Source of the DNA: Psychrobacter sp. bablab_jr014
GTDB lineage: Bacteria; Pseudomonadota; Gammaproteobacteria; Pseudomonadales; Moraxellaceae
Direction of reading: 5' to 3'
DNA length: 64,000 bases
NCBI RefSeq assembly: GCF_016464015.1
Contig: NZ_JACDXT010000005.1
Location: forward strand, 62,001 to 126,000
Both the position numbers and the translations under genes were made by a program. Below, piece after piece: positions 34,578 through 52,783 of the stretch. The notes below the pieces were generated by a model. That model searched no databases. It had not been told where the DNA came from and worked only from the letters and a program-made list of their open reading frames with translations. Numbering within the stretch: position 1 is the stretch's first letter; every line of letters begins with the position of its first letter.

Positions 34578-35243
34578 ATGACCGAGCGCTCGCAACCCAG
34601 TAATCAAAACGCGCAAAGCATTTTTAATTTGCCGAACAATCTGACCATCGCGCGTATCGTGATGATACCGCTGTTCATTGCGATTGCGTACTGGCCGCCT
34701 GCGCTTGGTATTGGTGTGCCGCTGATTCCTGACAATGTCATCGCCCGTGTGGGCATGAATGAGTTTAGCGACAGCTTACTGCGTCATGTGTTGCTGACCT
34801 TTGTGTTTGTACTCGCGGCAGTGACCGATTGGCTCGATGGTTACTTGGCGCGTAAGATGAACATCACCTCAGCCTTTGGGCGCTTTCTTGACCCTGTTGC
34901 CGACAAATTGATGGTCGCCGCCGCGCTCATTATTTTGGTGCAGTGGCACCCGAACATCATTATGGCGATTGCCGCGATTGTGATTATCTCGCGTGAGATT
35001 GCCGTTTCGGCATTGCGCGAATGGATGGCAGAGCTGGGCAACCGTACCAGCGTGGCGGTGTCGTATGTCGGCAAGCTCAAAACCACCTTTCAGATGATTG
35101 CCATCACGGTGCTGTTGTTAAATTGGGAATCGCTTGAATTGGTCGGCTATCTGCTGATGGTCGCCGCAGTGATATTAACCCTATGGTCGATGATGATTTA
35201 TTTAAAAGCAGCATGGCCGTATCTTAAACAAAGCGGTAGTTAG
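34578..35243 (+). CDS. pgsA: CDP-diacylglycerol-glycerol-3-phosphate 3-phosphatidyltransferase
   Basis: A 221-residue inner-membrane enzyme that makes phosphatidylglycerophosphate, the precursor of phosphatidylglycerol and cardiolipin. The CDP-alcohol phosphotransferase motif is complete: DWLDGYLARKMNITSAFGRF then LDPVADKL, with the spacing D-G-x2-A-R-x8-G-x3-D-x3-D. The N-terminus NLPNNLTIARIVMIPLFI and about five hydrophobic helices fit the family. There is an insertion between the first helix and the motif (VPLIPDNVIARVGMNEFSD). The TAG stop at 35241-35243 consists of the first three bases of a MITE-like element. Confidence 0.95.
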   Translation: MTERSQPSNQNAQSIFNLPNNLTIARIVMIPLFIAIAYWPPALGIGVPLIPDNVIARVGMNEFSDSLLRHVLLTFVFVLAAVTDWLDGYLARKMNITSAFGRFLDPVADKLMVAAALIILVQWHPNIIMAIAAIVIISREIAVSALREWMAELGNRTSVAVSYVGKLKTTFQMIAITVLLLNWESLELVGYLLMVAAVILTLWSMMIYLKAAWPYLKQSGS

Positions 35244-35414
35244 GGCGTGTCCCTAATTCAAGCGTTTATGACTAAATGGGCTAAAAATGGCTAAATCTTT
35301 GGCAAACGGTGTCAAATAGCTGGCCAATATCTTGATATTACCTGCGCTATTTTCCTTGTTTGCCTGCGATTTATCTCATTTTTATCACCATTTTTAAAAT
35401 AGGGACACGCCCTA
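35241..35414. repeat. MITE-like element, 174 bp, copy 1
   Basis: It has perfect 15-bp terminal inverted repeats, TAGGGCGTGTCCCTA (35241-35255) and TAGGGACACGCCCTA (35400-35414). The interior is closely related to 52611-52783 and, in reverse, to 45056-45230. It has no coding capacity. If TA is the duplicated target, the element proper runs from GGGCGTGT to ACACGCCC. The first three bases form the pgsA stop codon, and it sits between that stop and the pgsA terminator. Confidence 0.85.
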
Positions 35415-35440
35415 GTCAGCCCTGCAAAATAAATAGATAA

Positions 35441-35474
35441 AAAAAGCCAATCGCCATAAACGATTGGCTTTTTT
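35441..35474. terminator. Intrinsic terminator downstream of pgsA
   Basis: AAGCCAATCG pairs with CGATTGGCTT, with T6 on the plus strand and T5 or more on the minus strand. The MITE separates it from pgsA. Confidence 0.85.
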
Positions 35475-35621
35475 AATGGGAAATTATAAGAAAAGGCAAA
35501 CAAAAGATTGTTATATAGATTAAATAAAAGTAAAAATTACGTTATAATGTATTTTTTAGCAAACAAAAGAAAAGATAATTATTTTATTATTTTGATTTTA
35601 AGATATAGGGCAGAGAACAGT

Positions 35622-36383
35622 ATGCGCTTTAGCAAAAGTAAGTTGATGATAACAACAGTCGGACTGGCGCTTGTGGCAGGGTGCTCATCAAATTCCAATT
35701 ACCAAGTCAGTGAAAGTAACGCGCCAAGTATGCAGACAGCAGATGCGTCAGAACGTCTCGGTACGACATGGGGCGATGAGGTCAGCTCTAGTGTGCGCAG
35801 TGTCGATTTGCGCCGCGTCGATCAGACGCCAGTGGCACAGACACAGCTCAACTATGCCGACAAATATTATTATGGACAGCAAATCAACAGCATGTCGCTA
35901 TTGGGTGGTAAGGTTGAGATGTCCGTATTGGCTGACCGTGGCACACTGCCTATTTATCGTGATAATGGACAATATTATTTACAAGGCCATGCAGGCCAAG
36001 CCTATCGCTTGTATTATACGAACAACAGTAACCATACGTACGAGGTTGTTGCCAGCGTCGATGGGCTGAATGTTTTAAATGGTGAGGCTGCCAGTCGTTC
36101 TGCCAGTGGCTATGTGTTGTACCCACATGACGAGTTAGTTATTGAAGGCTTTCGCAAAAGCCAAAATGCGGTCGCATCCTTTATCTTTAGTACACCAAAC
36201 GATGCGTATGCCGCCAACACGCCATCAGGTTCAATCGATAATACGGGCGTTATTGGCACGGTGATGTATGAGCTGTATGACCCAAACAAACCGCGTCCCT
36301 ATTCACGTAATACCCAAGCACGCACACCGAACGCTTATCCAGCTGATGGCGGCAATCAGCGCTATGCCCAGCCGCCACAATAA
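35622..36383 (+). CDS. Conserved hypothetical lipoprotein
   Basis: A 253-residue predicted lipoprotein. Although the frame is open from 35508, ATG 35622 starts a clean leader, MRFSKSKLMITTVGLALVAGC, here ending at the lipobox Cys21. A Ser/Asn-rich stretch follows, then a domain (about residues 70-190) with KYYYGQQINSMSLLGGKVEMS and GHAGQAYRLYYTNNSNHTYEVVASVDG-type text (shown in part: YRLYYTNNSNHTYEVV), reminiscent of proteins in which a beta domain mimics a growth- or stress-related envelope protein. The C-terminus is rich in Pro, Asn and Gln and looks unstructured. I do not recognise a function. Single-gene unit bounded by terminators on both sides. Confidence 0.75.
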   Translation: MRFSKSKLMITTVGLALVAGCSSNSNYQVSESNAPSMQTADASERLGTTWGDEVSSSVRSVDLRRVDQTPVAQTQLNYADKYYYGQQINSMSLLGGKVEMSVLADRGTLPIYRDNGQYYLQGHAGQAYRLYYTNNSNHTYEVVASVDGLNVLNGEAASRSASGYVLYPHDELVIEGFRKSQNAVASFIFSTPNDAYAANTPSGSIDNTGVIGTVMYELYDPNKPRPYSRNTQARTPNAYPADGGNQRYAQPPQ

Positions 36384-36420
36384 AACGCCTTATAAATATA
36401 AACCATAAAAATCGCCCACA

Positions 36421-36452
36421 AAAAAAGCCCGCTATCCTAACGGGCTTTTTTA
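36421..36452. terminator. Bidirectional terminator
   Basis: AAAAAGCCCG pairs with CGGGCTTTTT. It lies between the convergent lipoprotein gene and the stress-protein gene. Confidence 0.85.
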
Positions 36453-36482
36453 TCAGCTGTGCTTGACGCATCACGGCACAGA

Positions 36483-36977
36483 TTAGAATGCGATTGAGTG
36501 GTTTTCGCCAACATTATCCGCTTTTTTGCCATCTTGTACGGCGGCAGCGGTCATTTTGAACATATTGACGACCGAGCTGCCGCTGAGCCAGTATTCTGCG
36601 CCGTGCGGTACAACTTTAATCAGCTGTACATTGGCATCTTCTTTACCTTGCTCAAAAAAGGCATTGTATACCGGTGACCACAGTTCTTCTAGTTTTTCTT
36701 GGTCATCGACCAGCTCGGCTTTACCTGTGATAGACACGTAGTCTTTGTCGTCTTGGCTGACGTAGGCGAGGTTAACTTGCGCTTGTTTTTGGATGTCTTT
36801 CACGGTTTCGGTGGTTTTGTCACCGATGAACCAAATTTCTTTTGCGCCCAGACTCGTTTCTGAGGTAGTCATTGGGCAAGCGTGGAGGTGGTCTTCAAAA
36901 GTGCGCGTGGTCATCATCGCATATTTGATGTCTTTGATGATGTCCTGAATCTTATCAATATGTTCTTGCTTATTCAT
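36483..36977 (-). CDS. General-stress-protein-26-like FMN-binding protein (pyridoxamine 5'-phosphate oxidase fold)
   Basis: A 164-residue split-barrel flavin-binding protein. The strands ACPMTTSE, LGAKEIWFIGDKTTETVKDI, QVNLAYVSQDDKDYVSITG and the following KAELVDDQEKLEELWSP match the general stress protein 26 family. The C-terminal AEYWLSGSS is typical too. Members bind FMN and are induced by salt or oxidative stress; the enzymatic role is generally unknown. AAGGACAAAG lies before the ATG at 36977. It is monocistronic, with a terminator downstream. Confidence 0.87.
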   Translation of the reverse strand: MNKQEHIDKIQDIIKDIKYAMMTTRTFEDHLHACPMTTSETSLGAKEIWFIGDKTTETVKDIQKQAQVNLAYVSQDDKDYVSITGKAELVDDQEKLEELWSPVYNAFFEQGKEDANVQLIKVVPHGAEYWLSGSSVVNMFKMTAAAVQDGKKADNVGENHSIAF

Positions 36978-37420
36978 AATCTTTGTCCTTATTCATTGTC
37001 ATTGTTATGTCGTTAGGGATGTCTTAATAAACTGGATACAGCATAGCGAGCAATACCGCCGCGTTTATATAGGCGCGCAGTAATGCGATGTTAGCGTTTG
37101 TAAGGTTTACGCATGTTTGGTAAAAAGTGCCTAAGAAATAGACAGATAGCGCAAAACTTATGGCACAAAAGGGATGAAAATAAAAAATAACGGATGCATA
37201 AGCGAAGAAGAAAAACGAAAGCACGGCAATACCAAAAAAAATAGAAAAGGCTAAAAAATAGTAGGCAAAAACGCCAGTCTGTTAGCAAAATTTGTCTAAA
37301 ATCATGCAGTCGCATGAATTTGAGGTGCTTTGTACCTGTTTCTTAGTGGGCTTCTTGTTATAATGCGCAGACCATTTACTTTGCATGGCAGTGATGCCTT
37401 GATCTTACGGATTATGCCTT
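36978..37420. other. Intergenic region upstream of purL
   Basis: 443 bp with A-rich tracts around 37160-37260. A perfect -10 TATAAT at 37359-37364 (with no good -35) probably starts purL transcription, giving a leader of about 50 nt. I see no PurR-type palindrome and no RNA gene. Confidence 0.4.
37359..37364 (+). promoter_or_regulatory. purL -10 element
   Basis: TATAAT about 57 bp before the purL start. The -35 is not convincing. Confidence 0.4.
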
Positions 37421-40400
37421 ATGATGACCATCGCCGGACTTTCTTTTCTGACCGATTTTCAGACGCAGCAGCTCATCAGCCAGTTTCAACAAAAAACTGA
37501 GCTGAACATCACGCAGATTAGCACGCAGCAAGTGTATGTGTTGCCTACCACCTTAAATAGCGACGACGAAAAAAAAGCCCTTGACCTATTAGGATTGGCG
37601 GAAAAAGGCAGCATCAATGCCCCTGCTGATAATGAGCGTCAAGTCATCGTCAGCCCGCGCTTTGGCACGATTTCTCCGTGGGCGAGTAAAGCGACCGATA
37701 TTTTTAATAACTGCGAGATTGACGTCAGCCGCATCGAGCGCGTGATTGTCTATACGCTGAGTACTGAAGCGGGCAGCAGCTTGCCAAGTCAATTGCCAGC
37801 CGCCGCGGAGCAGCTGCTCTTTGACCGTATGACCCAAAGTTTGGTCTACGATTTGGACGCGACCAGCAAGCTGTTTGACGACCATGCGCCAGCGCCGTTA
37901 AACCACGTTGACGTGATGGGCGAAGGTCGCAGCGCATTGGAGTCTGCAAACACCCAGTTTGGCTTTGCTTTGTCTGGCGAAGACATCGACTATCTGATGA
38001 ATGCTTATGTCAATGAATTGGGTCGCAATCCAACAGACGTTGAGCTGATGATGTTCGCGCAAGCCAACTCAGAGCATTGCCGTCATAAAATCTTTAATGC
38101 CCAGTGGACAATCGATGGCGAAGTACAGCCAAAATCATTGTTCCAAATGATTAAAAACACCCATCAGAACAACCCGCAAGGCATCTTGTCTGCGTATAAA
38201 GACAACGCGGCGGTGATGGAAGGCGCAGAAGGCTTGCGTTTTTATCCGCTACCGACTGACTTTACTGACGTGAATGCCACGCATCAGTATGGTTTTCATC
38301 AAGAAAATATCGATATCCTGATGAAGGTCGAGACGCACAACCACCCAACCGCGATTGCCCCGTATGCAGGCGCAGCGACAGGCTCAGGCGGTGAGATTCG
38401 TGACGAAGGCGCGACAGGTCGCGGCGGTAAGCCAAAGGCGGGCATGGCGGGCTTCCACGTCTCGCATCTACACATTCCAGAGCTGCCAGAAAAATGGGAG
38501 CAGTCAGGCGCGGTCAATACCAAAGACTACGGCAAGCCTGAGCGTATGGCGAGCAGCCTTGAGATTATGACCGAAGCGCCACTGGGTAGCGCCAACTTCT
38601 CAAACGAGTTTGGGCGTCCGAACCTATGCGGCTACTTCCGCAGCTTCCAACTCGACACCTCAGCGGCAAAAGACGGCAGCGAAATGCGCGGCTATCACAA
38701 GCCCATCATGCTGGCAGGCGGCTACGGCAACATCAAGCGCAACCTGATTGAAAAGAACGCCATTGCCGAAGGCGATCTACTCATCGTGCTTGGCGGTCCA
38801 GCGATGCAAATCGGCTTGGGCGGCGGCGCGGCGTCATCGGTAGACAGTGGTGAGCTGGATGAAGGTCTGGACTTTGCCTCTGTACAGCGTGACAACGCTG
38901 AGATGGAGCGTCGCTGTCAAGAAGTCATCGATCGCTGCTGGGCGCTCGCTGGCGCGGACAAAGACGGCAATGACAATGCGGACAACAACCCCATCGTCTC
39001 GATTCATGACGTGGGCGCGGGCGGTCTGTCAAACGCCATGCCTGAGCTCGTCAACGACCACGACATGGGCGCGCACCTCAACTTGCGCAAAGTGCCATCA
39101 CTTGAGGCAGGAATGTCACCGATGGCCATTTGGTCAAACGAAGCGCAAGAGCGTTATGTACTCGCGATTCGCCCTCAAAGCCGTGAGCAATTTGACGCCA
39201 TCTGTGCGCGTGAGCGCTGCCCGTACGCCATCTTGGGCGAGGCGACCGAAGTGCGTCAGCTGATCGTTGATGACGCATTGTTGCCAGAGCAGCCTGTCGA
39301 TATGCCGATGCAAGTATTGCTCGGCGGTACGCCGAAGATGCAGCGCAGCTTTAGCCGCGAAGAGAGCAGCCATCCTGCGCTTGATCTGTCAGACGTCGAT
39401 ATCAAAACTGCCGTCACTGACGTATTGCGTCACCCAACTGTCGCCAGCAAGTCTTTCTTAATCAGCATTGGCGATCGCTCAATCACAGGTATGGTGGTGC
39501 GCGATCAGTATGTCGGTCGCTATCAAGTACCTGTCGCCGACTGCGCGGTAACCGCATCAGCGCTGCTCGGTCTAGACGGTCAGCCAATGACGGGTGAAGC
39601 GATGAGCGTGGGCGAGCGTACGCCTGTTGCCCTAATCAGCCCAAAAGCCTCAGCACGTCTTGCGGTCGGTGAAGCCATCACCAACATCGCAGGCGCGTCT
39701 GTCCGTCAGCTGTCTGACATCACCATGTCAGCAAACTGGATGGCAGCCTGTGGCGATGATACTGAGGACGCGGCACTGTTTGACGCAGTACACGCCATCG
39801 GCGAAGAGCTGTGCCCAGCACTTGGCATCGCGATTCCTGTCGGTAAAGACTCGCTATCGATGCGTGCCAACTGGAGTGATGACGCGGGTGACAAATCGGT
39901 CGTCTCGCCAATGAGCCTTGTCATCACTGCCTTTGCCCCTGTCAGTGACGTGAGCCGCACACTCACGCCTGAGCTGGTCAACGGCGACAGCGCGCTATAT
40001 CGTCTGGATTTATCAAAAGGTCAGCTGCGCCTTGGTGGCTCAATCCTTGCGCAAACCATGAGCCAGCTCGGTAACGACTGCCCAGACTTGGCGGAGGCGA
40101 GCGACCTTGTGAACTTCTTTAACTTTATCCAAGCGGGTAATGCAGCAGGCGTTATCAGTGCCTATCACGACATTGGTGATGGTGGCTTACTGGCAAGTGT
40201 CGCGGAAATGCAATTCACCAGCCGTCAGGGCATCAAGCTGTCATTAACCGATGACAACCTGCTCGGTCAGCTGTTCAGTGAAGAGCTGGGCGCGGTCATT
40301 CAGGTCTTACCTGAACACATCGACGCCGTGACCGCCCTTGCGGACAAGCACAACGTCACCGATATGCTGAGCCTCATCGGTCACAGCTGTGAAGGCGACC

Positions 40401-41410
40401 GCCTGATCATCGAGACGCCAACGCAGCAAGGCGACGCCGCGCTGGACTTTGCGCGCAGTGAGCTACAGCAAGCGTGGACGCAGGTCAGCTACGAGATTGC
40501 CCGCCGCCGTGACAACCCAGAGAGCGTGCAGCAAGAATTTGACCTCATCAGTGATACGAGCCATCAAGGTCTGATTGCCGCGCCGAACTTTGAGCTGGAT
40601 AAAGCCATCGAAGCGCCGTATCTCAACAGCCGCACCAGCCGTCCAAAGGTCGCCATCTTGCGCGAGCAGGGCGTCAATGGTCAGCTAGAGATGGCAGCAG
40701 GCTTTACCCAAGCAGGCTTTGAAGCGGTCGATGTACACATGAGCGACCTACTCAAAGGGCGCGTTGATCTACGTGACTTTGACGGTCTGGTCGCCTGTGG
40801 TGGCTTTAGTTACGGTGATGTACTGGGCGCAGGCTCAGGCTGGGCGAACTCTATCTTGTTCCATGACGAGCTGCGTATGCAATTCGTGCGCTTCTTCGCT
40901 CGCCCTGAAACCTTTAGCCTTGGCGTGTGTAACGGGTGTCAGATGATGTCACAGTTAAAAGACCTTATCCCTGGCGCGGACAATTTCCCACGCTTTATCG
41001 CCAATAAGTCAGCGCGCTTTGAAGGGCGTACGGTCAACGTCAAGATTGAGCGCACCAAGTCGATCTTGCTCAAAGGCATGCAAGACAGCATCCTACCGAT
41101 TGCGGTCGCGCACGGTGAAGGCTACGCGACGCTAAACGCCACCGACATCGACGGTATGGAAAAACACGGTCAGCTGGCGATGCGCTATGTGGACAGCCAA
41201 GGTCGCCCAACTGAAACCTACCCGCTGAACCCGAACGGCTCTATCGGCGGTGTCACGGGTCTGTGTAGCACTGACGGGCGCGTGACCATCATGATGCCGC
41301 ACCCTGAGCGTAACCTACGCGCCTACAACCACAGCTGGAAACCACAAGAGTGGGACAACGATGGCGCGTGGATGCGTATGTTCCGCAATGCGCGTGCATG
41401 GCTGCGCTAA
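37421..41410 (+). CDS. purL: Phosphoribosylformylglycinamidine synthase
   Basis: A 1329-residue single-chain FGAM synthase, fourth step of purine synthesis, which uses glutamine and ATP to convert FGAR to FGAM. The N-terminal domain, linker ([18 protein letters not shown]), two AIR-synthase-like halves ([29 protein letters not shown]) and the C-terminal glutamine amidotransferase are in the usual order. The amidotransferase nucleophile cysteine lies in [13 protein letters not shown] near residue 1170, and the partner histidine and glutamate are in [11 protein letters not shown]. Length is close to the 1295 residues of E. coli PurL. ATGATG at 37421 leaves a one-residue ambiguity in the start. 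Confidence 0.97.
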
Positions 41411-41436
41411 GCTAAGCGTATACAGTGATTGAGTAA

Positions 41437-41468
41437 TAAAAAAAGGTGGGCTAAGGCTCACCTTTTTT
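41437..41468. terminator. Terminator of purL
   Basis: AAAAGGTGgGC and GGCtCACCTTTT pair with T6 on the plus strand and T-rich sequence on the minus strand. Confidence 0.8.
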
Positions 41469-41532
41469 GTGTTTAAATATTAAAGCTATCTCTAAATTCT
41501 ATAAAAAACAGGTACTAATAGTTAATCAGCTA

Positions 41533-42024
41533 TTATTTTACGCATTTGATATTGTGATCTAAGCTTGCTTTTCTAAGAAGATCGAACTTTTCCATTTCCA
41601 TCTTTTGCTTGTAGGTTGTAGAGCGCAAATATCCCGATGTTTTATTATAAAAACTCACTTGAGTTTTACTGTCATCAATCTCGGAAAATACGGTATGTTC
41701 TGACACATTAGCACCTTCTAAGATACTTAATGTCGCTAGCTTATTTTTTCTATCTAAGTTTGATGAGACACTTATGTCAGGCGTGGTATTGGTGATGGTA
41801 ACTGGCGTACCATTTGCATAAACGGTGATGGGATAACTGACGCCGCTTTTTGTTGCACAGCGTAAATAGTAGTCTTTAGCATTGGCATAGGCATCTATAT
41901 AGTTGACAGGCAGTTGAACCGTCTGCGGTGTGGTTTTTTCCAGTTTGTCCAAGCTGCTGGTCGTCGCACAGCCTACTAGGGTAAGAGATAAGGTAAACAA
42001 GGACAATAAGGCGGCTTTATTCAT
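41533..42024 (-). CDS. Hypothetical lipoprotein
   Basis: A 163-residue predicted lipoprotein. ATG 42024 gives MNKAALLSLFTLSLTLVGC with lipobox LVGC and Cys19; the 14-codon extension upstream has no support. The mature part shows YIDAYANAKDYYLRCATKS, a PITVYANGTPVTITNTTPDISV beta stretch and a charged helical C-terminus (YKQKMEMEKFDLLRKASLDH). It has two further cysteines (in LRCAT and IKCVK) that could form a disulfide. The gene starts 38 bp after the stop of the upstream lipoprotein, so the two form an operon. I do not recognise a family. AT-rich relative to purL. Confidence 0.65.
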   Translation of the reverse strand: MNKAALLSLFTLSLTLVGCATTSSLDKLEKTTPQTVQLPVNYIDAYANAKDYYLRCATKSGVSYPITVYANGTPVTITNTTPDISVSSNLDRKNKLATLSILEGANVSEHTVFSEIDDSKTQVSFYNKTSGYLRSTTYKQKMEMEKFDLLRKASLDHNIKCVK

Positions 42025-42062
42025 AATGCTAAATCCATAAACGGTAAAAGAATGAAACACAA

Positions 42063-42707
42063 TCAATTAACTTTTTGACTGATTACTTTATCTTTGAAGA
42101 TACCAATTTCTTTACTGGCAATTTCATCTTTTAAAATAATGGAGTCTCTATCCATTCTCGAGAGTCTATTATCCTGTTCATAGGTATAAACATGAATGGA
42201 TAGAACACCTTCTTTCACTTTAAAAACACTGATATAGTCAGTACTTGGCTTATAATCTATTGCAGGTAATACGATATCACTCTTCTTCCTATCCCTAGTC
42301 GTTAGTTGACCAAGTTCAACAACATGTTTACCAGCAGGAATTTTAACTTTCGCTGTTGCCATTTTCGCTGCATGAATATACCACCCAGAGTCAAAAAATA
42401 TTGAATGGGCGTATTTTTTTACAGGTATACCATCAACAGCGTAAATGCCATATGGATTAGGAGCATAGAAATTATCAGTTCGATAGTCTCTGACCAACTG
42501 TAAATTGGTAAAAGTAGCATATTTTTTAGATGAGTCTGTTACCAATTGGTCAGAGTAAACAGCGACTTTTTGTTCTTCAGATAAGCCTTTGACGTCTAGT
42601 CGAGAGCTTTCATTTTGTGGCGTGGCTGCTGTATTTCCTGACATGGTCGTACAGGCGCTGAGCGCGGTAGCCGCTAGCATAATGGCGGACAGGTATCTTA
42701 TTTTCAT
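42063..42707 (-). CDS. Hypothetical lipoprotein
   Basis: A 214-residue predicted lipoprotein with leader MKIRYLSAIMLAATALSAC and Cys19. The mature protein has LVRDYRTDNFYAPNPYGIYA, VDGIPVKKYAHSIFFDSGWY and KVKIPAGKHVVELGQL, a beta-sandwich-like pattern; the last segment resembles the P-GxHxVE pattern of small PEGA-type or similar surface lipoproteins. A family assignment is not possible by eye. AAGGAAATT precedes the ATG. It forms an operon with the shorter lipoprotein downstream. The segment is AT-rich and lies between purL and a long non-coding gap. Confidence 0.68.
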   Translation of the reverse strand: MKIRYLSAIMLAATALSACTTMSGNTAATPQNESSRLDVKGLSEEQKVAVYSDQLVTDSSKKYATFTNLQLVRDYRTDNFYAPNPYGIYAVDGIPVKKYAHSIFFDSGWYIHAAKMATAKVKIPAGKHVVELGQLTTRDRKKSDIVLPAIDYKPSTDYISVFKVKEGVLSIHVYTYEQDNRLSRMDRDSIILKDEIASKEIGIFKDKVISQKVN

Positions 42708-43001
42708 AATTTCCTTGACTGTTTAGATCGATAACATGAGATAAGGAACGATTGTGTTTAGTTATGAGATCAACAACTAAAACTGGAGATAAGAAATAAG
42801 GACTGCGTATAAACTTTTTAAAGCAGCAAGATATTTCTAAACAAAATTATATCGAATATTGTCGATTTTACTATCATTTTTATAGACACTTGCGCATATA
42901 TGTTGAGTGATACAGATGCAGAAATTACTTTTATGCTAAAAATCAAAAACTTAGCGGATTAATATTTAAAATACTTTAAAATTAATAACTGGAGGTGCTT
43001 A
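42708..43001. other. AT-rich intergenic region
   Basis: About 290 bp of AT-rich sequence with no recognisable structure apart from likely promoters for the lipoprotein pair. Confidence 0.4.
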
Positions 43002-43134: not shown

Positions 43135-43200
43135 TGGTCTGATATCTTCGAATCATTTTTAATAATGTATGCACTATAAGACGAGTTAATAAGCAGCACC

Positions 43201-44031: not shown

Positions 44032-44074
44032 GGCGAGCGTCCGTATTTTGAGCATGGGTTTGGTTAGGTTTGGC

Positions 44075-44821
44075 TTAAGACTGCGGCGCTATGTCTTGAT
44101 CGCTCTTTTTAATCTTCTTCTTAAGCCCTTTTTTCCAGCTCTCCTCCAAGCATTCAATCGCAAGCCACGACTCGATGACCTCGGGCGCGTGCTTTTCTTT
44201 ACTGTTGGTCAGTTGCCACAAGGCGGCTAGCGTGGCAAACGGATAGGGGCGCTCGATTAGATATACAGGGATGTCAGCGGTAATTTCGCCTTTTTGCACG
44301 ACTTCATAATACCAGCCTGAGATGCCTTGTTTGCTTATCCATGCGGCGATGTTGGGCACTTTGGTATAGTTGCCGATTTTATCATTGATTTTGTAGCAGG
44401 GGCGGCGCGGCTGCACCACACGCAGGCGTACAGCGTCGGCTGACGCATCGCCGTATTGATAGACATCGCCGATGCAGACGTTGCGTTCATCAAGCGCGGG
44501 CATGTCGCCTATCGGCATGGTTGTCAGGTTTTCGCCCAAGCTGCCAATTTCTACGTTTAAATCAAACTGTTCATTAATACGCGCATAGGTGGCGGTGGGC
44601 ATTTCGTGCACCGCTTTCAGCACGCCGCCGTGATGTTTATAGTCGGCTTGCTCATCAGTGACCAGCCCCAAGTTATTGACAGCGATAGGGGCGTTGACGG
44701 GCGTTTTATTAATGGCGCTCAGCTCGCCACGGGTAAAGGGCACCGCTTTGCCTGCGCGCACACAGGTGAGTAGAGCGATGGGCTGGGATAGGTCGCTGGT
44801 GTTTGCGTGAGTGCTTGGCAT
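44075..44821 (-). CDS. MOSC domain-containing protein, YiiM-like
   Basis: A 248-residue protein with a MOSC domain, the fold shared with molybdenum cofactor sulfurases. Motifs: DYKHHGGVLKAVHEMP (about residue 60), IGSLGENLTT, NVCIGDVYQYGDA, VRLRVVQPRRPCYKIN with the conserved cysteine, and the YiiM tail GISGWYYEVVQKGEI. YiiM-type proteins reduce N-hydroxylated compounds with a molybdenum cofactor, and that role is inferred here. The C-terminus is lysine-rich (KKGLKKKIKKSDQ). AGGATTACTC precedes the ATG. It ends 43 bp upstream of amiD on the same strand. Confidence 0.88.
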   Translation of the reverse strand: MPSTHANTSDLSQPIALLTCVRAGKAVPFTRGELSAINKTPVNAPIAVNNLGLVTDEQADYKHHGGVLKAVHEMPTATYARINEQFDLNVEIGSLGENLTTMPIGDMPALDERNVCIGDVYQYGDASADAVRLRVVQPRRPCYKINDKIGNYTKVPNIAAWISKQGISGWYYEVVQKGEITADIPVYLIERPYPFATLAALWQLTNSKEKHAPEVIESWLAIECLEESWKKGLKKKIKKSDQDIAPQS

Positions 44822-44987
44822 GAGTAATCCTTAGAATAAGAAGACAATAAGCAGAGGGCTAAAAAGTGCGGAGAGAGGATTTGTTGCGATGATTGATGAC
44901 AGTAGCGTTTGATGATAACAAGCGATTAAACATTTATCTAATATGATCTCATGTCCTATTGTACAACGCCGAGCTTCATAACAAGCA

Positions 44988-45021
44988 AAAAAAAGACCAG
45001 CGGTATAGGCTGGTCTTTTTA
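44988..45021. terminator. Bidirectional terminator downstream of rsfS
   Basis: AAAGACCAGC pairs with GCTGGTCTTT with T5 or more on both sides. The MITE at 45056-45230 lies between it and the rsfS stop. Confidence 0.85.
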
Positions 45022-45055
45022 TGAGGTGGCCAGTGTGTACTGGCAGCGGATGGCT

Positions 45056-45230
45056 TAGGGCGTGTCATTAATTAGATAGCGAGACTTAAAATGAGATAAA
45101 TCGTAGTCAAACAAGGAAAAAATTGCAGAGAATATAGACATATTCACAAAATTTTTGACGCTGTTTGGCAAGATTTAGCCCGTTTAAGACCGCTAAATGA
45201 GTCAATGGGCTAATTGATGAGACGTCCTTA
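45056..45230. repeat. MITE-like element, 175 bp, copy 2 (reverse orientation)
   Basis: The ends are TAGGGCGTGTCATTAATTAG and CTAATTGATGAGACGTCCTTA (imperfect inverted repeats). The interior, read in reverse, shares the CTAAATCTTGCCAAAC and TTTTCCTTGTTTG-CGATTTATCTCATTTT blocks with copies 1 and 3. Its right end supplies the rsfS stop codon (TAA on the minus strand, 45230-45228). The most diverged of the three copies. Confidence 0.75.
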
Positions 45231-45629
45231 GTTGCGGCGACCTGCTTTTTTCTCACGTGGGGTTGCGACCAGCTCCGCGAGGCTTTCAGACGATGACCAC
45301 AGACCTTCTAGGTCGTAGAATTCGCGTGCTTGAGGCATCATCATATGCACGACGACTGCGCCTAGATCAATCAGCGTCCAGTCAGAGTCGTTGCCGCCTT
45401 CGCGACCTAATGGCATAAAGCCTGCTTTTTTGGCTTCAGCGCCAAGGCTGTCGGCGAGGGCGCGTACGTGACGCTTTGAAGTACCGTCAGCGATGACGAT
45501 GCGTTCCATCACGTCGGTGAGGTTTTCGACATTGAGCACGGTGATGTTTTTGGCTTTCATGTCTTCTAGGGTTTCTTTAACGAGGGCTAGGCATTCATTC
45601 AGACGAGCTTCGGTCATGGTTTCGGTCAT
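45228..45629 (-). CDS. rsfS: Ribosomal silencing factor RsfS
   Basis: A 133-residue protein that binds ribosomal protein L14 and blocks subunit joining in stationary phase or starvation. The family pattern is clear: LVKETLEDMKAKNITVLNV, VMERIVIADGTSKRHVRALAD, GRDGGNDSDW-like GREGGNDSDWTLIDLGAVVVHM and REFYDLEGLW. The C-terminal tail ATPREKKAGRRN is basic and ends at a stop codon contributed by a MITE end. An alternative start four codons in (second Met) cannot be excluded. It follows nadD, the usual partner. Confidence 0.96.
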   Translation of the reverse strand: MTETMTEARLNECLALVKETLEDMKAKNITVLNVENLTDVMERIVIADGTSKRHVRALADSLGAEAKKAGFMPLGREGGNDSDWTLIDLGAVVVHMMMPQAREFYDLEGLWSSSESLAELVATPREKKAGRRN

Positions 45630-45759
45630 AGATATCAGTCTCTTTTGGTATCGGTAACTTTATGGTCATCTTTTGGCCCATTATCAAGAGCATGGATAAG
45701 ACGAACAAGAATACAGTGAGCCAGCCACGTGCGGTATGCAGGGCTGCAATGCGTTGATT

Positions 45760-46506
45760 TTAACGGAATTTGCCTGCGGAATATAGTTGATGCTCAATAA
45801 TATATTGATAAACACGGCGATGTAGGATGCTGGGTGCATTTTGAGATGCGCTATCAGGGTCGCTGAGCGCTTCGCGTACGCGTGTGCTGGACATGGCAGG
45901 TATCGGGCGGGGATCGATATAGATCATCCCTTTGCCTGTTTTCCATGGCGTGAGCAGGGAGGTGACTTCGGGTACGATGCGCGATTGTAAAGGCTTTGGT
46001 AGCGCTTTGCTTAATTCGTACGCGTCAATACTGCCTGTATAGGCACGGTCTGTCGTCTCAAGACTGCGGTCAAATATCCACAGATGCACATGATTGACCA
46101 GCGCCAAGCCTTCGCGCCATTTATCGAGTGTGCGTGCGCTGTCCATGCCCATAATAAATATTAAGCAGTCGTGTGGATAGCGCTCGCGTAAGGTGCGCAC
46201 GCTGTCAATACTATAGACAGGCGGCGTCTGCCACAGCTCCAGCTCACTGACTTCGATGGTCGTGCCCATGATGGCTTGGCGTATCATGGCCAAACGGTGG
46301 CTGGGAGCGCTGCTCTCGTCTTTGAATGGCGAGCGCGCATTAGGCAAGAGGGAGACAGAGACCGTTTGCTGCGGGGCATGCCAGCGCTGTAATGTCGCGT
46401 ACACGGCCTGCGCCATTTGCAAATGCCCTTGATGAATCGGGTCAAAAGAGCCGCCCAAGTAGGCACGAATCGCAGGCGGGCAGAGCAGTGGAGCAGCAGT
46501 TGGCAT
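45760..46506 (-). CDS. nadD: Nicotinate-nucleotide adenylyltransferase
   Basis: A 248-residue enzyme that adenylates nicotinate mononucleotide to deamido-NAD. The nucleotidyltransferase motif GGSFDPIHQGHLQMAQ lies near residue 18, LLPNARSPFKDE and FIMGMDSARTLDKWREG follow, and the C-terminal AMSSTRVREAL is the (S)STxxR ATP motif. The N-terminal MPTAAPLLCPPAIRAY is slightly long, and the ribosome binding site is weak. It is directly upstream of rsfS, 130 bp apart, a common arrangement. Confidence 0.95.
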   Translation of the reverse strand: MPTAAPLLCPPAIRAYLGGSFDPIHQGHLQMAQAVYATLQRWHAPQQTVSVSLLPNARSPFKDESSAPSHRLAMIRQAIMGTTIEVSELELWQTPPVYSIDSVRTLRERYPHDCLIFIMGMDSARTLDKWREGLALVNHVHLWIFDRSLETTDRAYTGSIDAYELSKALPKPLQSRIVPEVTSLLTPWKTGKGMIYIDPRPIPAMSSTRVREALSDPDSASQNAPSILHRRVYQYIIEHQLYSAGKFR

Positions 46507-46577
46507 GGGATATCACTTGTGATCAAAAAATAAAAGCGCGTATAAAAACGCGCCTATGATAGCAAATTTATGACAAT

Positions 46578-46614
46578 AAAAAGGGTACAGCCAGTCATTA
46601 ATCGTGCTGTACCC
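46578..46614 (-). terminator. Intrinsic terminator of pta
   Basis: GGGTACAGC (46583-46591) pairs with GCTGTACCC (46606-46614), with TTTTTATT after it on the minus strand, seven bases past the pta stop. Confidence 0.85.
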
Positions 46615-46621
46615 ACCATTG

Positions 46622-48769
46622 TTAAATGGCGTCACTGTCTGCCTGAATGGCAGTCAAGGCGATGGTGTAGATAATGTCATCCACCAAGGCCCCGCGTGAT
46701 AAATCATTGACAGGCTTATTTAACCCTTGCAGCATGGGGCCGACACTGACCACATTGGCGCTACGCTGCACCGCTTTGTAGGTCGTGTTGCCTGTATTTA
46801 AGTCAGGGAAAATAAACACGTTGGCTTGACCTGCTACGGGTGAGTTGGGTGCTTTTTGTTTGCCCACGCTCATGACTGAGGCGGCATCGTATTGTAGCGG
46901 GCCATCAACCATCAAGTCAGGCGCCCGCTCACGTACAATACGTGTGGCCTCAGTGACTTTATCCACGTCCGCGCCCGTGCCTGATGAGCCTGTCGAATAG
47001 CTGATCATCGCGACTTTTGGCTCAATACCAAAGGCGGTCGCCGACTGCGCCGATTGAATGGCAATCTCGGCAAGCTCAGCCGCGCTTGGGTCAGGGTTAA
47101 TTGCGCAATCGCCATACACCACCACTTGTTCAGGCAGCAGCATAAAAAATACCGACGATACTAAGGAATACTGCGGCGCAGTCTTAATCAACTGAAAGGC
47201 GGGGCGTACGGTGTTGGCAGTGGTGTGTACTGCGCCTGAGACAAGACCATCGACTTCGCCAAGCTGAAGCATAATTGTCCCCAAAAACACCGTATCGAGC
47301 AGCTGCTCAGCGGCGACAGGCTCGCTGGTTTTGCCACGGCGGCGCTCGACCACCGCCTTGATGTATTTAGGCATATCCACATCAGCAGGGTCGATAATTT
47401 CTAAGCCCTCAGGCATCGTCAAATCACGATTTTTAATCACTTGCTCGACGTCTGCACGCTTGGCGAGCAGCACGCAGTTGGCGATACCGCGACTTTGACA
47501 AATACACGCCGCTTCAACCGTACGCGGTTCGTCGCCTTCGGGCAGGACGATGCGTTTTTTGGCGTGTTGGGCTTTTTTGACCAGCTGATGACGAAACGCA
47601 GACGGCGATAAGCGCGGGGTGTAGCTGTGGCTAAAGTAATCTTTTATCCAGCTTAAGTCCAAATGCGCCGCCACATAGCGGGTGACTTCTTGTGCGCGGT
47701 CAATATCATCGCTCGGTATCTCAGCGCTGATGTTAAGTAAGTTTTGTACCGTCTCAAAGCTGTCGGTCTCAACCTGCATAATCGGTATGCCTGTCTTGAG
47801 CGCCGATTGCCACAGCTCCGTAACCGTATCGTTGGGCGCGATGCCGCCTGTCAACACCAAACCTGCCAAAGGGATACCGTTGATGCACGCCAGCGCCGCT
47901 GCCAGCAGTAGCTCATCACGATCCCCAGGCACGACAATCAACGTGCCACGTTTAAACACCGAATCCACTCGCGCGACCGAACGCGCGGTTAGGCTGATGT
48001 TATTCACACGGCGCGACTTTGCCTCACCGACATTGATCCATGTCGCACCAAGCGCCATGGCAATATCCCAAGTACGCGGCACGGATAAGGAGTTGCTAAA
48101 CGGCACAACGCCAATCAAGCGAAACTGCTCGGTATAAAAGTACGGCGACTGCTTTTGTACCGCACGGATAAAGGTATCATCGAGACTGACCATCGCCTCA
48201 CCAGGCGCGACAGGCTGACTCTCAAAGGTGTTTGGCACATCATGCACCCGCATCAAAATACAGCCAAGTGTACGGTCGCTGGCGACGCTGCCAAAATCGC
48301 GCGCGTGTACGTCGAGCTTGTCCGCGAGCTGTTCAGGGTGCTGCATATCAACGGTGCTGACAAAAATAACTTTGGCATCTAACGCATGCGCCAGCGCGCG
48401 GTTAATCTGCGAGGCGTAAGACGCTTCGGTAGTCGGCACCAAGCCTTCACAAATCACCACGTCATAATCATCACCCAACTGATGATAGTTGACCACCACT
48501 TCTTCCATCAAGTCATCCATATTGTCATCGCCCAGCATTCGCTCAACGTGTTGGCGATTGATAGACGGCGGCGGCTGTAGCCCAAACGCATGGGTAATCA
48601 GCGTGCTGGTACTGTCTAAGCTATTTTGCCTGTCTAAGGTGTCCTCTTGCAAAAACGGCTTCATAAAACCCGCTTTGATACCGTTATAATCAAACGCGCG
48701 AATCAGTCCGAGCGCCGCTGAGGTCACGCCGATACCGCGACTGATGGGAACAAGTAAAATGGTCTGCAT
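46622..48769 (-). CDS. pta: Phosphate acetyltransferase, long form
   Basis: A 715-residue enzyme interconverting acetyl-CoA and acetyl phosphate. The N-terminal BioD-like/DRTGG regulatory part starts QTILLVPISRGIGVTSAALG and includes the DRTGG-type segment (ISLTARSVARVDSVFKRGTLIVVPGDRDE, seen around residues 240-270). The C-terminal catalytic PTA domain carries KKRIVLPEGDEPRTVEAA, GLVSGAVHTTANTVRPA, MISYSTGSSGTGADVDKV and GPLQYDAASV. ATG 48769 with GGAG six bases upstream is chosen; the 25-codon extension is not conserved in style. It lies 113 bp after ackA in the same direction. Confidence 0.96.
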   Translation of the reverse strand: MQTILLVPISRGIGVTSAALGLIRAFDYNGIKAGFMKPFLQEDTLDRQNSLDSTSTLITHAFGLQPPPSINRQHVERMLGDDNMDDLMEEVVVNYHQLGDDYDVVICEGLVPTTEASYASQINRALAHALDAKVIFVSTVDMQHPEQLADKLDVHARDFGSVASDRTLGCILMRVHDVPNTFESQPVAPGEAMVSLDDTFIRAVQKQSPYFYTEQFRLIGVVPFSNSLSVPRTWDIAMALGATWINVGEAKSRRVNNISLTARSVARVDSVFKRGTLIVVPGDRDELLLAAALACINGIPLAGLVLTGGIAPNDTVTELWQSALKTGIPIMQVETDSFETVQNLLNISAEIPSDDIDRAQEVTRYVAAHLDLSWIKDYFSHSYTPRLSPSAFRHQLVKKAQHAKKRIVLPEGDEPRTVEAACICQSRGIANCVLLAKRADVEQVIKNRDLTMPEGLEIIDPADVDMPKYIKAVVERRRGKTSEPVAAEQLLDTVFLGTIMLQLGEVDGLVSGAVHTTANTVRPAFQLIKTAPQYSLVSSVFFMLLPEQVVVYGDCAINPDPSAAELAEIAIQSAQSATAFGIEPKVAMISYSTGSSGTGADVDKVTEATRIVRERAPDLMVDGPLQYDAASVMSVGKQKAPNSPVAGQANVFIFPDLNTGNTTYKAVQRSANVVSVGPMLQGLNKPVNDLSRGALVDDIIYTIALTAIQADSDAI

Positions 48770-48882
48770 AACAGCTCCTAAACAGATGGCACAGTCCACC
48801 TGATGGCAGAAATAAAGGTCGAAAAGTAAATCAGGCGAGGGCATAAGTTGCCCATGATCCAGCGATCACACCAATGAGCAGG

Positions 48883-50094
48883 CTAAAGCGCCTCCATGCC
48901 CAATGCCGCGCGCGTCTCTTGCGCGATGCGGCATTCTTCATCGGTCGGTATCACCCACAGCTCAAGGGCGCTGTCTTCGGCATGAAAACTGCCCTCAGCA
49001 CCGCGAATCAGCGCATTATTTTTATCATCATCAATCTTAATACCAAAGTGACGCATGACCTTTAAAATACGCGCACGCGTGTCGGCGGCATTTTCACCGA
49101 TGCCGCCTGTAAACACAATACCTGTCAGCTCAGGCAGGGCGCAGCTGAGCGATGCCAAATATTTGCCCGCGCGATAGCAAAACATCTCAATCGCTAGCGC
49201 CGCATCGTCATCGCCATCGGCTGCTGCTTGCTCAATCATACGCATGTCATTGGACAGCCCTGAAATGCCAAACAGCCCGCTTTGGTTGTTGAGCATATCG
49301 TTGACTTCTTCAAGGCTCATGTTCAGCGTGCGCTTTAGGTGAATGTGCAAGCTTGGGTCCACATCACCACTACGCGTGCCCATCATCAGACCCTCAAGCG
49401 GCGTCAAGCCCATGCTGGTGTCCAGACTCTCGCCATCATAGACCGCAGTTGCCGAGCAGCCATTACCCAGATGCGCGGTCAGCCAGCCGTGCTTGCCTGT
49501 CTTATCGGTTAGTTGGCTTGCGCGGTCAGAAACATAGGCGTGTGAGGTGCCATGAGCACCATAACGGCGGATACGGTGCTCATCATACAGCGCTTTGGGC
49601 ACAGGATAGCGGTAGGCCACAGGCGGCATGGTCTGGTGAAATGCGGTATCAAACACCACCGCTTGTGGTACATTAGGATAAATGGCTTCAACCGCTTCTA
49701 CGCCCAGCGCATTGGCAGGGTTGTGCAGGGGTGCTAAGATTTTTAGGCGCTTGATTTCTGCCAATACGTGCGGGGTCACGCGCTCGGCTGCCGAAAATTC
49801 GCGTCCGCCATGCACCACACGGTGCCCGACCGCTACAAAATGATACTGCTCAAGCAAGCCCAAAATCTTTTGTAAGGCCAACTGGTGCTGACCGCCAGGG
49901 ATGCTAATCTCTTGCGACTCCCCTGCCAAATTCTTGTGCTTAATGTGCGCCGTGTCCAAGCCGAGGTTTTCTGCCAAGCCTGTGATGCGCGTGCGGTTGT
50001 CAGAGCTAATCAGCGCGTATTTGATAGAAGACGACCCACAGTTAAGCACCAATGTGGGGTCAATGAGATCATTTGTAGTGGAGCGGTCAGTCAT
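48883..50094 (-). CDS. ackA: Acetate kinase
   Basis: A 403-residue kinase interconverting acetate + ATP and acetyl phosphate, partner of Pta. Family signatures are VLNCGSSSIKYAL near the N-terminus, HRVVHGGREF, the second acetokinase signature DTAFHQTMPPVAYRYPVP, RYGAHGTSHAYVS with the catalytic arginine nearby, HLGNGCSATAVYDG, DTSMGLTPLEGLMMGTRSGD and the C-terminal FTGGIGENAA. AAGGACATACT precedes the ATG. Upstream lies a long repeat-bearing gap. Confidence 0.97.
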   Translation of the reverse strand: MTDRSTTNDLIDPTLVLNCGSSSIKYALISSDNRTRITGLAENLGLDTAHIKHKNLAGESQEISIPGGQHQLALQKILGLLEQYHFVAVGHRVVHGGREFSAAERVTPHVLAEIKRLKILAPLHNPANALGVEAVEAIYPNVPQAVVFDTAFHQTMPPVAYRYPVPKALYDEHRIRRYGAHGTSHAYVSDRASQLTDKTGKHGWLTAHLGNGCSATAVYDGESLDTSMGLTPLEGLMMGTRSGDVDPSLHIHLKRTLNMSLEEVNDMLNNQSGLFGISGLSNDMRMIEQAAADGDDDAALAIEMFCYRAGKYLASLSCALPELTGIVFTGGIGENAADTRARILKVMRHFGIKIDDDKNNALIRGAEGSFHAEDSALELWVIPTDEECRIAQETRAALGMEAL

Positions 50095-50360
50095 AGTATG
50101 TCCTTATAAAATGAATGGTACAGCGAGCGTCTTATTACACGTATTTAAGCGCTTTAGGCAGGCATTATTGCTGCGCTGCTAAGTCATCAAGCGCCAAAGC
50201 GTTACGCATAAAATACGCGCATTTTTATTGTTATAGTCAGGTCTTTTTAAAATAGGTATCGCGAAAAAAGCCGTGTCATCAGGTCTATTGATTAAGGCAT
50301 AGCCTCTAATCTTGAATCTATAGCAAAGCCCAAATAAAACTGATATAGCATCAAAAACAC

Positions 50361-50436
50361 GCAAGATTAAAGGCTATTTTCCTTGCTTGCTGTGACTTCG
50401 TCTCCAGATGCTGCGAAAAATAGCCTTTAATCTTGC
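50361..50436. repeat. Dispersed hairpin repeat, copy 2
   Basis: GCAAGATTAAAGGCTATTTT (50361-50380) and its exact reverse complement (50417-50436) form a perfect 20-bp stem. The loop CCTTGCTTGCTGTGACTTCG...GATGCTGCG is the reverse complement, with changes, of the loop at 6107-6150. Confidence 0.75.
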
Positions 50437-50875
50437 TGTATCATTTTTAAATTGACTTGACTATAACTACATAAATATAAAATAGCCAAGTAGCATACGC
50501 TACTATTGGCATATACAAACTGCCAAATCACTATAAGCGGGCATGAACCCTGCCGTCAAGTAGCAAAACGTGAGGTTGGGCGCGTCTGTACGGCTTTATG
50601 GTCGGCGCTTGATGCGTGTGGACGGTCACCGTTATGAACGCATAAGCGTTTGAATTGAAGACACGCCCTAAAACATCAAACAACAAAATTGTTGTTTAAT
50701 CCCTGCAATCCACGCAAAGTATTGTCGATTAATGCTATGATAAAACGCCTATACACAGCGCCTCTATTTGGCGCTGTTATTGTACCAAAATAGGTCGCCG
50801 AGGCTGATAAATAGCGGTTGGTGAATCGCGGCTGATGAATTATAGGTACGCTGCTATCTTTTGTAAGGGTGTGTT
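50437..50875. other. Gap upstream of lptM with a MITE end
   Basis: The 781-bp gap between ackA and lptM contains the hairpin repeat and, at 50641-50670, the reverse complement of TAGGGCGTGTCTTCAATTC plus about ten related bases, a MITE end. A weak partner (TTGGGCGCGTCT, about 50575) could mark the other end of a degenerate element. No gene or RNA is evident. Confidence 0.5.
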
Positions 50876-51133
50876 ATGTCGTCTTCTATTAAAAATAAGC
50901 CATCTGTTGATGTGCGTGTGCTGCGTCTTATTGGCATGCTATGTATTGGCAGCAGCTTGGTTGTCGGCTGCGGTCAAAAGGGCGACTTGTATTTGCCTGC
51001 AGGCAGTGCCAGCTCTGAGAGTAAGCAAATGATTGAAAGTGGCAGCAGTCCACAAGATGATGCCTTTGCGCGTGTGGACGATGAGCCGATGACGGACTTG
51101 CCAAGCGCGAGCAGCGACCCCAACGACTATTAA
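50876..51133 (+). CDS. lptM: LPS translocon maturation chaperone LptM-like lipoprotein
   Basis: An 85-residue lipoprotein. The leader ends in VVGC (Cys32), and the mature part starts CGQKGDLYLPAG, the LptM/YifL hallmark (CGxKGxLYLP). LptM helps oxidise and assemble the LptDE lipopolysaccharide translocon. The rest is a Ser/Asp-rich tail without predicted structure. It precedes lysA and dapF exactly as the equivalent small lipoprotein gene does in Pseudomonas. GGGTGT precedes ATG 50876. Confidence 0.9.
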   Translation: MSSSIKNKPSVDVRVLRLIGMLCIGSSLVVGCGQKGDLYLPAGSASSESKQMIESGSSPQDDAFARVDDEPMTDLPSASSDPNDY

Positions 51134-51156
51134 TGCCGGTTGATTTATTTCGCGTC

Positions 51157-51210
51157 AGATCTTAATGGCTTAGATCTTAATATTTGAGGTCTTAATAGCT
51201 CAGGTCTTAA
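51157..51210 (+). repeat. Four 15-bp-period direct repeats upstream of lysA
   Basis: The motif aG(A/G)TCTTAA recurs at 51157, 51172, 51187 and 51202, at exact 15-bp intervals. It could be a regulator-binding array or slippage-generated sequence. Confidence 0.65.
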
Positions 51211-51269
51211 AAATATAGGCGAGAATGCGCCGTAATTTTTGAATGTTTGAACAACTTAGAGATATCGTT

Positions 51270-52613
51270 ATGAGTAATTGTGAAGCTGCCACTGTGAGCA
51301 CCCAAACTGAGGCAGGATTGTATATTGATGCTAATGCCTTAACCCAGCATTTGCCAGCGCTTAGCTATCAAGGCGATGCGCTACAGATTGAGTCGGTCAG
51401 TATTAAGGATTTGGCACAGACTTACGGCACGCCCTGCTATGTGTATTCAAAACAGGCAATACTAGACGTGTACCATGCCTATAGCACGCATTTTGCCAAG
51501 ATTGACCATCAGATTTGCTATGCGGTAAAGGCCAATTCAAACCTTGCTGTCTTAAGCGTATTGGCAGAGGCGGGCGCAGGCTTTGATATCGTATCACGCG
51601 GCGAGCTGATGCGTGTATTGGCCGCAGGCGGGCAGGCGTCACGTGTGGTCTTTTCAGGCGTGGGCAAAACACCAGCGGACATCGAATATGCGCTGGGTCA
51701 AGGCATCGGCTGCTTTAATGTAGAATCTATCAGCGAGCTGTCTATCATCAATGACGTGGCACAAAAGCTGGACAAAAAAGCGCCAATTTCACTGCGCGTC
51801 AATCCTGATGTGGATGCCAATACCCACCCATACATTTCGACAGGTCTAAAAGACAACAAATTCGGCATCTCTCACGATAAGGCAATTGCGGTTTATAAAG
51901 ATGCCGCGCAAATGTCGCACATTGATATTCTAGGTATCGACTGCCATATTGGTTCACAGTTGACGCAGGTTGAGCCATTTGTTGCCGCGCTTGATAAATT
52001 GATTGAGCTGATTGAGCAGCTACGCGCTAAAGGCATTGCGCTCAAACACATTGATTTGGGCGGCGGCTTGGGCGTGCGCTACATTGATGAGCAGCCTGTG
52101 AGCGTTGCTGATTTTGCCGCTGCTTTGTTGCCAAAATTGCAAGACTTGGGTTTGAGCGTGTTCTTTGAGCCAGGTCGCAGTATGGTAGCGAATGCAGGTA
52201 TTTTGATTACTGAAGTCAATATCTTAAAGCCCACCGAGCACAAAAACTTTGCCATCGTGGATGCAGCGATGAACGATTTGATTCGTCCTGCCTTGTATCA
52301 AGCCGAAATGGCCGTTATCCCCAGTACCTTGCCTAAAAAGGATGTGGACGCTGAAAATGCAGAAGCGTGGGACATTGTTGGCGCGATTTGTGAAACGGGC
52401 GACTTTTTGGCAAAAAATCGCGTACTGTCATTGGCGGTCGGCGATTTGCTCGCGGTGACAGGTGCAGGCGCGTATGGGTTTAATATGAGCAGCAACTACA
52501 ATACGCGTCCACGCGCTGCCGAAGTGATGGTATCAGGCAGTCAGCATCAGCTTATTAAGCCGCGCGAAACGGTTGAGGCACTCTACGCTGATGAGCAGCT
52601 GTGGCAAAGCTAG
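51270..52613 (+). CDS. lysA: Diaminopimelate decarboxylase
   Basis: A 447-residue PLP enzyme that makes L-lysine from meso-diaminopimelate. Markers: the PLP lysine in CYAVKANSN (about residue 90), FSGVGKTPADIE, NPDVDANTHPYISTGLKDNKFG, HIGSQL, DLGGGLGVRY, EPGRSMVANAG, CETGDF with catalytic cysteine, and GAYGFNMSSNYN. An upstream ATG at 51243 adds nine residues but has no ribosome binding site, whereas AGAGA lies about eight bases before 51270. The TAG stop (52611-52613) is the start of a MITE-like element. Confidence 0.96.
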   Translation: MSNCEAATVSTQTEAGLYIDANALTQHLPALSYQGDALQIESVSIKDLAQTYGTPCYVYSKQAILDVYHAYSTHFAKIDHQICYAVKANSNLAVLSVLAEAGAGFDIVSRGELMRVLAAGGQASRVVFSGVGKTPADIEYALGQGIGCFNVESISELSIINDVAQKLDKKAPISLRVNPDVDANTHPYISTGLKDNKFGISHDKAIAVYKDAAQMSHIDILGIDCHIGSQLTQVEPFVAALDKLIELIEQLRAKGIALKHIDLGGGLGVRYIDEQPVSVADFAAALLPKLQDLGLSVFFEPGRSMVANAGILITEVNILKPTEHKNFAIVDAAMNDLIRPALYQAEMAVIPSTLPKKDVDAENAEAWDIVGAICETGDFLAKNRVLSLAVGDLLAVTGAGAYGFNMSSNYNTRPRAAEVMVSGSQHQLIKPRETVEALYADEQLWQS

Positions 52614-52783
52614 GGCGTGTCTTCAATTCAAACGTCTACGACTAAATGGGCTAAAAATGGCTAAATCTGCGGCAAACGGTGTCAAATAGCTGGTCAATAT
52701 CTTGATATTATCTGCGCTATTTTCCTTGTTTGCCTGCAATTTATCTCATTTTTATCACCATTTTTAAAATGAAGACACACCTA
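52611..52783. repeat. MITE-like element, 173 bp, copy 3
   Basis: The left end is TAGGGCGTGTCTTCAATTC and the right end GAAGACACACCTA, imperfect inverted repeats. The interior is nearly identical to copy 1 over about 140 bp (differences include cttt/ctgc and ggcc/ggtc). It begins inside the lysA stop codon and lies between lysA and its terminator. Confidence 0.85.

Follow-up and report, generated by a model that had tools for sequence, protein, structure and literature searches.

We analysed a 64,000-nucleotide stretch of the genome of Psychrobacter sp. bablab_jr014 (contig NZ_JACDXT010000005.1, positions 62,001 to 126,000; the whole stretch is referred to as the window and the genome as the home genome), in which a first-pass annotation had described elements resembling miniature inverted-repeat transposable elements (MITEs) that sit exactly in the stop codons of four genes. 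For three of the genes this placement is exact. A full copy of the CCCTAA subfamily (35241-35414, plus strand, with its flanking TA duplications; 170 bp without them) occupies a TTAG target at the end of a pgsA-like gene (34578-35243, plus strand), the TAG stop of which (35241-35243) includes the left TA together with the element's first G. Likewise, the TAG stop (52611-52613) of a lysA-like gene (51243-52613, plus strand) forms the boundary of a full copy of the TTCAA subfamily (52611-52783, plus strand), the right end of which seems one base short. The third copy (45056-45230, minus strand) is diverged, belongs to the ATTAA/ATCAA subfamily, has an imperfect right end and meets rsfS (45228-45629, minus strand) at its stop codon (45228-45230), which reads TAA, the terminal bases of the element having changed there. 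In these three copies the element proper measures 169-171 bp, or 173-175 bp with the flanking TAs, and our home-made codon-pair model predicted no gene inside any of them. The families of the adjoining genes were taken from Pfam (CDP-alcohol phosphatidyltransferase for the pgsA-like and Orn/DAP/Arg decarboxylase for the lysA-like gene), within which the names pgsA and lysA are presumed, by the first-pass annotation and by us.

The copies had also been described as lying between the stop codon and the native terminator, and a terminator-like hairpin is indeed found beyond each of the three, distal to the element. Those 3' of rsfS (44990-45020, minus strand) and lysA (52862-52888, plus strand) were found in the direction of the gene; the one past pgsA (35440-35474, assigned to neither strand) appeared in the scan for the minus strand alone, although T runs border it on both sides, and has a similar counterpart 3' of pgsA in G053, the nearest relative sampled. 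The fourth proposed site did not hold up. At the stop of a DUF6691/YeeE-like gene (17695-18117) the end motif TAGGGCGTGTC is present (18115-18125, plus strand), but a search within 260 bp showed no second end. Because only the end motif occurs there and it is shared with G053 (of 30 loci, those of the home genome and G053 have it and the other 28 lack it), we rejected this site as a fourth element; the motif may be an old remnant or a chance match. A solo end fragment also lies between genes, outside any stop codon (50642-50670, minus strand).

The elements are MITEs, as the first-pass annotation had surmised, with ends of the type of the IS427 group of the IS5 family, starting GGGCGTGTC: they are short, multicopy and non-coding and have terminal inverted repeats. 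In the 2.88-Mb home genome TAGGGCGTGTC occurs 87 times vs once for the reversed pattern, and a BLAST search with the pgsA copy, which scored 40 of 107 first-look candidates, gave at least 40 copies (45 matches, five of them places already listed, on the other strand). Five contigs of the home assembly (L022, L038, L051, L066 and L071) start inside an element; the copies are probably undercounted because the assembly breaks at repeats. A longer end pattern was matched in 55 of 60 genomes of the genus, the home genome included; the shorter motif gives 282 ends in G026 alone, and in a named collection at least 108 stretches matched, with all 80 among the matches listed being Psychrobacter. Copies at 74% identity are carried by three Moraxella osloensis plasmids. 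Subfamilies are distinguished by the letters after GGGCGTGTC, for example CCCTAA, TTCAA, CTCAA and ATCAA. Elements of 47 bp, with little beyond the two ends and with YTA/TAR flanks (Y, pyrimidine; R, purine), were seen at L037 1528-1574, L055 1506-1552 and L058 1477-1523 and are perhaps the smallest mobile form.

An insertion sequence with the same ends, for which the first-pass annotation had suggested a search, exists in the genus. Seven copies of 837-844 bp examined in other genomes have the terminal 15-22 bp in common with MITE subfamilies, with ATCAATTA, TTCAATT, CTCAATT or CCCTAAT following GGGCGTGTC; all seven contain two overlapping transposase frames, and the flanks are YTA/TAR, the same target duplication as that of the MITEs. 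The home genome holds a decayed copy of 826 bp (G000:C56:2363), and the one piece of its transposase that was scanned (84 amino acids) matches PF13586 and PF01609 above cut-off. These insertion sequences thus have what defines the IS427 group of the IS5 family: an IS5-type DDE transposase, a length of ~830-865 bp, two overlapping frames and a 2-bp duplication. A transposase piece 91.5% identical is present on the Acinetobacter pittii plasmids NZ_CP027659.1 and NZ_CP029006.1, which may mean that insertion sequences of this kind have passed on plasmids from one Moraxellaceae genus to another. The window MITEs resemble them at the ends, mostly over 15-22 bp that are exact or nearly so; longer weak alignments reach 68 bp at 69% identity with one insertion sequence, and one internal match is at chance level. 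As a parent we also considered a 262-amino-acid frame at G000:C35:174514, and rejected it because no ends within one mismatch were found in its locus (L074). A further IS5-type insertion sequence of ~859 bp with the ends GGGCGTGTTGAAC (L277-L281 and L287) is flanked by YTA and by TAG, TAA or TAC, with a single transposase frame of 262 amino acids in the only copy examined.

One member of the 837-844 bp type has been published. Table 1 of PMC6514802 lists ISPssp5 (IS5 family, IS427 group, 837 bp) from the Psychrobacter plasmid pP32BP2 with the left inverted repeat GGGTGTGTCATCAATTA, the right inverted repeat GGGCGTGTCATCAATTA and the direct repeat TA. As in the elements described here, the inverted repeats read GGG(T/C)GTGTCATCAATTA and TA is duplicated; the flanks in the plasmid record are CTA/TAA, and the ends match the ATCAA subfamily, the one nearest to the rsfS copy. 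Unlike the MITEs, ISPssp5 has two overlapping transposase genes, and the likeness of insertion sequences of this type to the MITEs lies mainly at the ends. IS427-group elements of Paracoccus, as excerpted from PMC3281130, are similar in measuring 832-865 bp, having two overlapping open reading frames with presumed frameshifting, and having 2-bp direct repeats in 10 of 11 cases; they differ in belonging to another host lineage, and a MITE of this type was not met in the excerpted account. Two other MITEs offer parallels. MITEAba12 of Acinetobacter is likewise a Moraxellaceae MITE thought to be mobilised by a resident insertion sequence, but it is 113 bp long, has the ends GGCTTTGTTGCACAAA and makes 9-bp duplications, with no target motif reported in the excerpt of that account (PMC6382973). 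RUP of Streptococcus pneumoniae likewise uses TA targets and is matched to the resident IS630-Spn1, but is 107 bp long with IS630-type ends, according to the portion of PMC2229807 that describes it. Among the papers listed in searches of an open-licence collection, none was found to describe this Psychrobacter MITE or insertion into stop codons by elements of the IS427 type. The family is one of a known kind, with IS427-type ends and TA duplication, for which those listings gave no description.

The target had been proposed to be TA, and this proposal can be refined: the target is YTAR, of which the central TA is duplicated. Among the GGGCGTGTC ends in the home loci fetched, 84 of 91 follow TTA or CTA. 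Because the pattern used to fetch most of these loci already demanded TA, the informative figure is the pyrimidine before TA, found in 84 of 87 ends. Since the left flank is YTA, the element starts with GGG and the right flank is TAR, the TA must be duplicated. Among 151 paired elements from five genomes the targets were TTAG (51), CTAA (39), CTAG (35), TTAA (20) and other (6); relative to the non-interior YTAR sites available, CTAG was used at 0.076, TTAG at 0.043, CTAA at 0.036 and TTAA at 0.009 per site, so that TTAA is used 4-8 times less than any of the other three. Stop codons that fit YTAR end 420 of 880 predicted genes in the five genomes and 95 of 203 in the home genome. Because TA plus the first G of the element restores TAG, an insertion into TAA or TAG recreates TAG, as had been proposed, and leaves the protein unchanged. 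Comparison with relatives bears this out. At the position of the rsfS element G053 has an exact empty site (CTTAG|TTG; CTAA/TTAG as target on the two strands), with TA at the boundary. G053 is uninformative as a source of empty sites for pgsA and lysA because both stops differ there; at the other loci examined both genes end within three codons of the home position. Across 30 loci per gene, home genome included, the YeeE-like, pgsA, lysA and rsfS genes end at most three codons from the home position, so that none of the proteins was cut short by the insertions, and the earlier view of them as harmless stands in the sense that the protein is essentially unchanged.

For the question of a stop-codon preference, we deleted every paired element in silico, classified the restored site as stop, intergenic or interior, and took as controls the remaining YTAR sites of the fetched DNA from which it came. 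The statistics take only elements with both ends found. Unpaired ends left out numbered 31 in the home genome, 19 in G026, 10 in G046, three each in G020 and G019 and 10 in the named loci; among them, four in the home genome (lysA and YeeE included), one in G020 and one in the named loci adjoin a predicted stop. In G026 we followed 99 of the 100 ends listed out of 282, and G046, G020 and G019 were represented by 20 regions each rather than by every listed end. Of the 80 named loci listed, 45 were used: 20 had been sampled before, and 15 were dropped for having 60-mers in common, a crude criterion that can be set off by the repeat alone. The home set of 38 does not include two copies that lack TA at an end. 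Because their right ends are imperfect, the lysA and rsfS copies were missed or misplaced by the automatic pairing; they lie outside the 193 elements analysed, in which the pgsA copy is the sole one from the window.

Pooled over the six samples, 27 of the 193 paired elements lie in stop codons, 163 between genes (62 of them no more than 50 bp past a stop) and three in gene interiors, vs 499, 6168 (1301) and 12940 YTAR controls, respectively. Gene interiors are strongly avoided (Mantel-Haenszel odds ratio (OR) 0.01; three observed, 125 expected), and sites near gene 3' ends are used more than other intergenic sites (OR 2.38, 1.72-3.29). Stops, too, exceed intergenic YTAR sites (OR 2.05, 1.35-3.12). 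Of the 38 elements that were paired automatically in the home genome, 11 are in stops, vs 74 of 930 non-interior YTAR controls (74 stop, 856 intergenic); elsewhere the counts are 6/54 (G026), 0/19 (G046), 3/21 (G020), 3/19 (G019) and 4/42 (the 45 named loci). The five-genome results were stable at gene-score cut-offs of 5, 12 and 18.

The excess over intergenic sites, together with its nominally greater size in the home genome, could indicate that the transposase or a host factor, such as the terminating ribosome or the transcription complex, steers insertion to stop codons, and the first-pass annotation had invoked either such a preference or special selection on stops. However, the excess is present only against intergenic sites as a whole and vanishes when the comparison is with YTAR sites at most 20 or 50 bp beyond gene ends: with limits of 20, 50 and 100 bp the OR is 0.91, 1.09 and 1.30, and every interval spans 1. 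The 50-bp comparison, which is close to the control that had been proposed, gives a 95% confidence interval of 0.68-1.75, that is, stops are not used above neighbouring legal sites as they would be by a stop-codon-specific element. Moreover, in the other four genome samples the OR of stop vs near-3' sites is 0.86, and G046 has none of its 19 elements in stops. Based on these comparisons, we regard steering to stop codons as very unlikely. Instead, the distribution is very probably that of Psychrobacter MITEs moved in trans by IS5/IS427 transposases with a YTAR target and subject to selection on location, without an extra preference for stops.

Several points weigh against this account. The stop share of insertions in stops or near 3' ends is 11 of 24 in the home genome vs 16 of 65 elsewhere (p = 0.07), and with the lysA and rsfS copies added by hand it becomes 13 of 26 vs 16 of 65 (p = 0.026); with both additions the home comparison of stop with near-3' sites gives p = 0.045, and without the window copies p = 0.24. 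These tests of a home excess are post hoc, the pattern having been the reason for choosing the window. In the samples other than the home genome, stops do not significantly exceed even intergenic sites, either in the four genomes (OR 1.49, p = 0.2) or in the named loci (OR 1.47, p = 0.52). Genes were predicted with the codon-pair model in place of curated annotation, the counts include sites common to species by descent, and the draft home genome yielded no intact insertion sequence whose ends match. Finally, the distribution may reflect a bias towards gene 3' ends at the time of insertion; it is from location that we infer selection as its cause.

The enrichment within 50 bp 3' of genes is also compatible with positive selection at gene ends, where a hairpin in the 3' untranslated region would stabilise or process the mRNA or block read-through. 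Consistent with this, the pgsA and lysA copies are each predicted to fold along their whole length (-63.8 kcal/mol, z -7.0, and -54.4 kcal/mol, z -6.8, respectively), and in the model a transcribed element can form one long hairpin starting at the stop. The folding test covered 145 copies, the remainder of a set of 163 (160-176 bp) once a similarity cut had been applied and duplicates had been taken out. In single-sequence folds 144 of these pair their two ends. When the pgsA stem is projected on all 145, its inner part is 92.7% paired vs 38-53% when slid, and five of 47 inner pairs show double changes in at least three copies vs one or two when slid; in most cells of the projection the stem is kept. 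However, transposase recognition already predicts paired ends; the projected structure was derived from one copy, RNAalifold over the same 145 copies did not recover a long shared hairpin, and avoidance of genes and promoters accounts equally well for the location. Selection for such hairpins at gene ends therefore seems to us very improbable, if a little less so than steering. That the repeats are conserved 3' regulatory elements rather than transposons would fit their foldability and their placement near gene ends, but is contradicted by the exact empty rsfS site and by ends that match those of insertion sequences; in addition, no other genome among 30 loci per gene has an element end at the pgsA, lysA or rsfS stop, and we give this idea practically no credence. 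Over the window, Rfam at the gathering cut-off returned two tRNAs and nothing else. Near-identical tRNA genes lie 265 bp apart on the minus strand at 9569-9651 and 9834-9916.

The simplest reading is thus that the stop-codon placement is real and its explanation ordinary, namely the target rule plus the loss of harmful insertions. In the mechanism we propose, IS5-family transposases of the IS427 group would recognise ends of ~15-18 bp starting GGGCGTGTC, would mobilise the MITEs in trans and would insert them at YTAR, duplicating its central TA. Because about half of the predicted stops are TAR preceded by a pyrimidine, these stops would be legal targets, and the rebuilt TAG would spare the protein. 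Copies are under-represented inside genes and, less markedly, at other intergenic positions. Removal by selection would be the simplest cause and would leave the survivors concentrated at and just past gene 3' ends, stops included, with no additional preference for the stops themselves. It is unlikely, though a shade less so than the alternatives above, that stops serve as safe harbours in a further sense, such that a long RNA hairpin running from the stop of housekeeping genes would lead some lineages, the home lineage among them, to keep copies as 3' control of the mRNA.

The findings illustrate how a simple rule (a YTAR target, a duplicated TA and an element starting with G) would let a transposon use stop codons as harmless landing sites. 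They also provide a worked control, in that taking nearby 3' sites as the comparison erases an apparent preference for stop codons. For Psychrobacter, an abundant repeat family is now linked to insertion sequences of the IS427 group.

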